Source: Acidobacteriota bacterium (GTDB lineage Bacteria; Acidobacteriota; Blastocatellia; Pyrinomonadales; Pyrinomonadaceae). From it: a DNA stretch of 62,803 nucleotides. The position numbers were made by a program, and so were the translations under genes. The stretch covers positions 1-62,803 of the forward strand of contig JAKQII010000390.1 of NCBI GenBank assembly GCA_029557535.1, written 5' to 3'. This document shows, in pieces, positions 54,310 to 55,533 of the stretch; position 1 is the first letter of the stretch, and each line of letters starts with the position of its first letter. Below the pieces are notes generated by a model that was not told where the DNA came from, did no database searches, and was given only the letters and a program-made list of their open reading frames with translations.

Positions 54310-55533
54310 TTATTCGTTATCCAATTGCGCAAGAAAGCCCGTCCGAAACGCCTCAAACTCACCGTCGACGATCGCCGTTCTTATCCGCTTCATCAGATTA
54401 AGGTAAAACGCGAGATTATGATGCGAGATCAAGGTCGCCGCCAACATCTCGCCGGACTGGTAAAGATGCCGCAAGTACGCACGCGAGTAGCGCCGGCAGA
54501 CCGAACACGGGCAATCCTCATCAAGCGGGTCCGGGTCGAGCGCGTAACGGGCGTTCCGGATGTTGATCTTTCCGCGCGAAGTGAACGCGCCGCCGGTTCG
54601 GCCGTTGCGCGTCGGCATCACGCAATCGAACATATCGACGCCTCGCCGGACACCCTCGATCAGGTCCTCCGGGGTCCCGACCCCCATCAAATAACGCGGC
54701 GCATCGTGAGGCATTCGGGGCGCCAGGTACTCGAGCACCTCGTACATGACGCTCTTTTCTTCGCCCACGCTGAGACCGCCGATCGCGTAGCCGTCAAATC
54801 CGATCTCCTGCGTCAGTTCGAGACTGTGCCGACGAAGTTCAAGATGGCCTGCACCCTGAACGATCCCGAACAATGCCTGCTTGCCAGAAATCCGTGTGGG
54901 ATCTGGGATTTCGGACTTGGGATTTTCCTCCAATCCGAAATCGTCAATCCCAAATCCCAAATTGACGTGTCCTGAATCCGCGCCGTCACGTTGAAGTTCG
55001 TTGAATTTGTCCTTCGAGCGGCGAGCCCAGCGGGCCGTCATCTCGAGCGACTTCAGCGTCTTTTCGAACCCTGCGTCGCCGGGCGGACAATCGTCGAAGA
55101 CCATGACGATCTCCGATCCAAGCGCCGCCTGGATGTCCATCGAGACCTCAGGAGAGAGAAACCGCCTGCTGCCGTCGATATGCGAGCGGAACTCGACGCC
55201 TTCCTCGGTCAACTTTCTGAGATCCGTCAGCGAGAAAACCTGAAAACCGCCGGAATCGGTAAGGAGCGCGCGATTCCACGTCGAGAACCGGTGAAGCCCG
55301 CCCAATTCGCGTATCACTTCATGGCCGGGCCGAAGGAATAAATGATAAGTGTTGCCGAGGATGATCCGCGCGTCGAGTTCGTCCTCGAGCCACTCGAAAC
55401 GGACGCCTTTGACCGTTCCCTGCGTCCCGACGGGCATGAAGACCGGCGTCTCGACAACAGACCTGCGAGTCTTAAGTATTCCGGCGCGCGTTTCGCCGTC
55501 GGTGGCAATTATGCGCCAATCGATCGGACGCAT
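54310..55533 (-). CDS. tgt: queuine/preQ1 tRNA-guanine transglycosylase with in-frame repeat insertion
   Basis: Tgt exchanges guanine-34 for preQ1 in tRNAs with GUN anticodons. The active-site block ALLTDSGGFQVFSL with the first catalytic Asp, QALFGIVQGAGHLELR, GFDGYAIGGLSVGE, the second Asp region DMFDCVMPTRNGRTG and the zinc site CPCSVCRRYSRAYLRHL ... ISHHN are intact. Residues about 191-212, just before QALFGIVQ, come from the palindromic GGGATTTGGGATT repeat. This part is absent from normal Tgt. Start ATG 55533 is 1 nt after the upstream stop; the longer frame to 55590 is not supported. Confidence 0.95.
   Translation of the reverse strand: MRPIDWRIIATDGETRAGILKTRRSVVETPVFMPVGTQGTVKGVRFEWLEDELDARIILGNTYHLFLRPGHEVIRELGGLHRFSTWNRALLTDSGGFQVFSLTDLRKLTEEGVEFRSHIDGSRRFLSPEVSMDIQAALGSEIVMVFDDCPPGDAGFEKTLKSLEMTARWARRSKDKFNELQRDGADSGHVNLGFGIDDFGLEENPKSEIPDPTRISGKQALFGIVQGAGHLELRRHSLELTQEIGFDGYAIGGLSVGEEKSVMYEVLEYLAPRMPHDAPRYLMGVGTPEDLIEGVRRGVDMFDCVMPTRNGRTGGAFTSRGKINIRNARYALDPDPLDEDCPCSVCRRYSRAYLRHLYQSGEMLAATLISHHNLAFYLNLMKRIRTAIVDGEFEAFRTGFLAQLDNE
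54898..54963. repeat. palindromic repeat copy inside tgt
   Basis: The left arm (54898-54924) carries GGGATCTGGGATTTCGGA units, and the right arm (about 54931-54963) carries their complement, including AATCCGAAATC and AATCCCAAATCCCAAATT. It is the same class as the element at 14715-14809. It is 66 nt long, a multiple of three, and has no stop in the tgt frame. Confidence 0.85.

Follow-up and report, generated by a model that had tools for sequence, protein, structure and literature searches.

Dispersed palindromic repeats lie in frame in one loop of queuine tRNA-ribosyltransferase in Pyrinomonadaceae

Described repeats and the tgt locus

Dispersed palindromic repeats that lie in frame in unrelated conserved genes have been described as Rickettsia palindromic elements, RPEs (Ogata 2000, 2002, cited in PMC10969869 and PMC3733652). 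The occurrence of REPs inside genes is established in several other bacteria, and loops and linkers have been proposed as places that tolerate such sequences (PMC10969869, PMC3733652). Acidobacteria appear in PMC3733652 solely in connection with transposases, and the paper mentions neither queuine transferase nor leucyl-tRNA synthetase. Dispersed G-rich heptamers, GGGAATC in Xanthomonas and GGGGATT in Nostoc, are mostly intergenic and close to stop codons (7-11% of those in Xanthomonas overlap genes), and they often form convergent inverted pairs, with 70 cases in X. campestris (PMC4692102).

The repeat analysed here lies in the tgt gene of an Acidobacteriota genome (G000; the window is the whole analysed stretch of 62,803 nucleotides). 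Like the RPEs of Rickettsia it is a dispersed palindrome standing in frame in a conserved protein gene whose orthologues lack it, and in-frame copies are found in several unrelated host genes; the likeness proposed is one of phenomenon. RPEs are about 150 bp long and have been treated one family at a time in Rickettsia (and Wolbachia), whereas the tgt element is a 66-nt heptad palindrome in Acidobacteriota and one loop of one enzyme is hit by about 13 classes of insert. The GCGGTAGCGGGCGG doublets present in the tgt genes of several relatives are inverted REP pairs, resembling the intragenic GTAG/CGTC REPs and RAYT REPtrons described in PMC3733652, PMC2817692 and PMC3116915. The G000 element differs from these in its variable number of 7-nt units and in having neither a fixed stem with a GTAG/CGTC-type tag nor a RAYT association.

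With the Xanthomonas and Nostoc heptamers the element shares the 7-nt period, GGG-bearing units, dispersal, intergenic bias and inverted pairs. The tgt copy does not contain the four or more consecutive GGG units of G-quadruplex heptamers; the arms in G000 combine GGG, CGG and GCG units and in many cases lack the length needed for a G-quadruplex, and here there are in-frame protein captures with empty orthologues. The TAACTGA repeats of Beggiatoaceae are likewise dispersed intergenic heptamer arrays whose mechanism of spread is unknown, but they are direct repeats of another sequence, whereas the present heptads are palindromic (PMC4679880). A literature search covering few of the subscription journals returned no report of repeats inside Tgt or of heptamers in Acidobacteriota. 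In-frame palindromes are known as such; what is new is the lineage, the heptad palindrome as the captured element, and a single loop hit by many unrelated classes.

The palindrome in tgt and its family in the genome

The open frame of tgt (54310-55590, minus strand, 426 aa) extends upstream to a GTG at 55590; residues are numbered here from the ATG at 55533. The product matches the Pfam TGT family with an E value of 2.7e-151, its best Foldseek matches are Z. mobilis TGT (TM 0.87-0.95), and it is complete by both Pfam and fold. Cys341, Cys343, Cys346 and His372 (CxCxxC...H), as well as Asp93 and Asp303, are invariant in an alignment of 47 relatives. We take their roles, as zinc ligands and at the catalytic positions, respectively, from what is known of Z. 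mobilis TGT; the motifs are intact, as had been predicted from the sequence alone.

Table 1. Features of the window, and inserts found at the same tgt loop in the family
Feature	Position in window or genomes	Strand	Basis or remark
tgt (queuine tRNA-ribosyltransferase)	54310..55533	-	probable start ATG 55533; Pfam, Foldseek
Heptad palindrome in tgt, 66 nt, in frame, VNLGFGIDDFGLEENPKSEIPDP region	54898..54963	-	sequence, fold, alignment, AF2
5' arm, coding strand: ATTT GGGATTT GGGATTG ACGATTT CGGATTGG	54931..54963	-	
3' arm, coding strand: AAATCCC AAGTCCG AAATCCC AGATCCC	54898..54926	-	degenerate heptads
Intergenic heptad palindrome, CATTT GGGATTT ... AAATG	14714..14808	+	fills whole tsf-pyrH spacer
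GGGATTT/CGGATTT-type copies	40421..40510	+	apparently intergenic
REP doublets, arms up to 29 nt	G003, G001, G087, G089, G093, G083, G032		
REP remnants	G008, G068, G137		
AAATCCC heptads	G000 (window), G034		
GTTCCGA heptad palindromes	G081, G107		
GTTTCAA heptads	G068		nested in REP remnant
AAGGCGG and TCATCAC heptads	G010		
21-nt repeat	G025		about 14 tandem copies
CCCTCACCCC-type insert	G139		
CACCCCTCCTT-type insert	G062, G084		
Further palindromes	G011, G082, G108, G140		remnant of the G082 type in G105
Unclassified insert	G113		
Older extension	one clade of genus g10		non-palindromic

The minus strand across the insert reads ...GTCAATTTGGGATTTGGGATTGACGATTTCGGATTGGAGGAAAATCCCAAGTCCGAAATCCCAGATCCCACACGG... 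with the frame open throughout, and a short loop separates the two arms of the palindrome. As a single strand it folds with -37.3 kcal/mol compared with -23.4 kcal/mol in shuffled sequences (z -5.3), and none of 200 shuffles was as good. These results bear out the original prediction that a 66-nt palindrome lies in frame in tgt. That prediction put the addition at about 22 residues, which is right as to the addition and somewhat high as to its size: the loop from WARRS to FGIVQG has 59 residues in the window compared with a modal 39-40 in the family, a net gain of about 19-20. The gene is present in 57 of 60 relatives, most of which have no insert and 39-40 residues in this interval; in the Tgts of close relatives the inserted residues are absent and both flanks are conserved. 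Nor were they found in three Terriglobia Tgts, the distant Acidobacteriota that we examined, which differ at this place. Inspection of the G000 insert by eye revealed no target-site duplication. The palindrome carries two GGG tracts on the sense strand and three on the other strand, too few for a G-quadruplex to be the unit of function, and we rejected that idea.

Across the genome (4.77 Mb) there are 83 exact matches to the 13-mer GGGATTTGGGATT, grouped in 63 clusters, compared with no occurrence of the reversed pattern. Inspected by eye, the clusters share one layout, CATTT(NGGATTT)n - loop - (AAATCCN)nAAATG, with recurrent CATTT...AAATG ends, and most of them begin only a few nucleotides from a stop codon. 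The number of units varies, and the units are mixed (GGG, CGG, GCG). The window has 11 sites of the repeat at up to two mismatches, compared with 2.1 expected. Statistics on period-7 arrays come from 458 kb of the genome, the remaining genome-wide counts from pattern searches. In these 458 kb there are 107 period-7 arrays per Mb and none with periods 4-6 or 10-11. An inverted partner lies within 160 nt of 26 of the 49 arrays, compared with one for the reversed, uncomplemented control. Only four of the 49 are wholly inside predicted genes, though 86% of the DNA is coding, so arrays within genes are rare survivors.

Such survivors were found by scanning the genome for further in-gene copies. The same heptad repeat stands in frame at two places in leuS and in five other genes, encoding an M1 peptidase, the linker of PDH-E2, a GNAT acetyltransferase, a methyltransferase and XdhC. 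Nothing corresponding to the first leuS insert was seen in the LeuS of 15 relatives, except for a shorter extension in G011. At the second site, in the later part of the gene, G000 has heptads, G003 has a REP, and G001 and G011 have other extra sequence (L015, L107-L109). In a probable secreted protein (MRLRNWDLGFGILRVL...), the first residues come from a heptad array (L097, 1505-1524) that is apparently fused to the protein's signal peptide.

The window has other repeats besides: tandem ATTCAAG-type arrays at its start (36-194), an inverted repeat whose 38-nt arms are based on GACGGTA heptads (60617-60790), and, towards the end of the window (62592-62743), a 76-nt tandem duplication (AGCCCCGAAGGGGCGACGCA...). 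We considered an autonomous transposon with heptad ends, and rejected it: an inward-facing pair 1.5 kb apart on contig C299 looks, by eye, like the flanks of two genes.

One loop in 105 Tgts

The loop could be resolved in 105 Tgts of the family, most of them from draft assemblies. Setting aside extensions before the start codon and one small alignment offset in G139, every internal insertion of at least 5 residues falls at one site. Loops of at least 47 residues are present in 28 genomes including that of the window, and G140 adds a shorter palindrome. The inserts fall into about 13 classes (Table 1), a count made by inspection because BLAST clustering joined unlike classes through their short flanks. 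The repeat in tgt that was first noticed is real, but the site is not special to the heptad repeat, as 27 further genomes have other, mostly unrelated inserts there. A minority of the inserts, those of G113 and of the G120/G121/G122/G125 clade, are not recognisable as repeats. The loop of G062 recurs unchanged in the Tgt of a Pyrinomonadaceae isolate, SS_bin_32, and this match identifies the family. The Tgt of G025 (L195) is longer by approximately 100 residues, in which an EKQLTDR-like unit of seven residues is repeated about 14 times.

Palindromes are strongly over-represented among these loops. A significant inverted repeat is present in 15 of 28 loops with an insert and in none of 59 without (Fisher 1.4e-9), and the hairpin z score is below -2 in 18 of 28 and 1 of 59, respectively. 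A Tgt tree computed with the loop left out requires at least 19 changes between presence and absence of an insert, a parsimony count that does not separate gain from loss. Some inserts of one class could share a single event, as with the TCAGAACC REPs of G001, G003, G008, G068 and G087 or the AATCCC heptads of G000 and G034. Repeated capture is indicated by the different classes, which often occur in close relatives (G032, G137, G139, G140).

In the classes tested, the inserted repeats are the carrier genome's own dispersed repeats. G003 has 68 copies of the REP GCGGTAGCGGGCGG and G001 has 21, TCATCAC x3 has 49 copies in G010, CGGTAGCGVNCGG has 364 copies in G137, and GTTYCRA arrays are dispersed in G081, G107 and G068. 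A short Y1/RAYT-like gene in G018 (L403, G018:C23) has inverted doublets of TCAGTACCGCCTGCGGTAGCGGGCGGGT on both sides; they belong to the GCGGTAGCGGGCGG class found in the tgt of several relatives, including G003. Such a flanking arrangement is expected of RAYT-mobilised REPINs (PMC2817692, PMC3116915), and the REP-type captures were presumably placed by RAYT transposases. The heptad palindromes flank none of the eight Y1_Tnp loci that we examined in G000, one of which (L061) is flanked by palindromes of its own, GTGGCAATTCATGC, and we therefore rejected RAYT as the mobiliser of the heptads. The original claim that the heptad repeat moves or spreads is consistent with its dispersal and its absence from orthologues, which point to mobility; they do not connect it to a mobilising enzyme.

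An AF2 model of the window's Tgt has a mean pLDDT of 84, with values below 50 for insert residues 193-213. The insert is placed between helix 155-183 and strand 220-225 of the TIM barrel, and is predicted to be a disordered loop. Helix-to-strand loops of a TIM barrel are on the face opposite the active site, and we take the substrate-binding glutamine to be at the far end of strand 220-225. The measured spacing of this loop is 14-17 residues in most other bacteria compared with about 32 in the family even without an insert; the lineage had thus already lengthened its Tgt loop. The heptads GGGATTT, CGGATTT and GCGATTT contain no stop in any of six frames, a property of about half of all heptamers, and arrays of them should therefore survive in genes more readily. 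The Tgts of Acidobacterium sp. S8 and Candidatus Sulfotelmatobacter (L314, L321) have long loops at the same place, with a spacing of 45 and 48; these are possibly further captures in Terriglobia.

How the inserts may have arisen

We consider it highly probable that the inserts are copies of repeats dispersed in the respective genome, captured in frame at a permissive loop of Tgt in a process that would be neutral and filtered by selection. For G000 the donors would be its dispersed palindromes, the inverted GGGATTT-type heptamer arrays that normally lie just after stop codons, and a copy would have entered, with the frame kept, the helix-to-strand loop that immediately precedes the ALFGI(V)QG strand. 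It would be tolerated because the loop is long, unconserved and predicted to be disordered in this lineage, and could be read through because the heptads are free of stops in six frames. Within the family this loop has repeatedly taken up repeats that differ from one another and are mostly unrelated; insertions out of frame or in the protein core would be lost by selection, and capture itself would be neutral. The heptad-type captures probably arise by a copying route other than RAYT.

A more far-reaching reading, to which we give a low probability, would make the tgt loop a genuine hot spot for insertion with a target preference rather than just a site of tolerance. Several mobile classes, RAYT-type REPs and heptad palindromes, would re-enter it at the same few codons, and an evolving system of 7-nt-periodic palindromes with a lineage-specific vocabulary would supply new protein sequence across Pyrinomonadaceae.

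The loop might instead be merely hypervariable, with slippage and strand switching making and expanding low-complexity repeats in situ and no transfer between loci; the likeness to genomic repeats would then come from one local process at work throughout the genome. This would agree with the dominance of period 7 in the genome and the frequency of inverted partners among the arrays, with the 21-nt tandem array that makes up the G025 insert, and with the tsf-pyrH spacers of many relatives, which hold tandem-arm palindromes of a different sequence each, as local growth would produce. However, many tgt inserts are long non-tandem REP units that are dispersed in the same genomes, with perfect 29-nt arms in the tgt of G003 and G032, and the G000 insert contains AAATCCC, the most frequent heptad of its genome. 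We therefore think local growth unlikely.

It is very improbable that the insert extends Tgt adaptively and performs some function in its own right. It is kept in frame in a conserved enzyme, and the basal loop of the family is already longer than in most other bacteria, both of which an adaptive extension would explain, but sequence, length and class change between near sisters (G067 has no insert, G068 has one), the four sampled members of genus g3 have four different inserts, the insert is predicted to be disordered, and the inserts share no conserved residue pattern. An assembly artefact or chimaeric contig, conceivable in a draft of 404 contigs, can practically be dismissed given the open frame, the conserved Tgt on both flanks, and the recurrence of such insertions in over two dozen genomes that were assembled independently.

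If capture is the correct explanation, the growth of a protein by captured repeats is recorded here naturally and in replicate, in one loop of one enzyme, with about 29 insert-bearing genomes among 105. The presence of empty loops beside filled ones makes it testable how often non-coding repeats become protein and how fast the added residues decay, and the same set can test loop tolerance against insertion preference as the cause of the pattern. The findings also suggest that 7-nt-periodic palindromes form a widespread class, little described so far, which differs in sequence by lineage at one and the same place, the tsf-pyrH spacer.

The tsf-pyrH spacer (window 14713-14810; L226-L243) contains a palindrome with tandem arms, approximately 75-100 nt long, in many of 18 relatives. 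The period is usually 7 and the unit varies by genome (GGGATTT, GTGGAGA, GTCGAGA, GTTGTCA, CAGTTAT, GTTCAAA and others), many units being of the form AGTNNNN; a few relatives have ordinary terminator-like hairpins instead.
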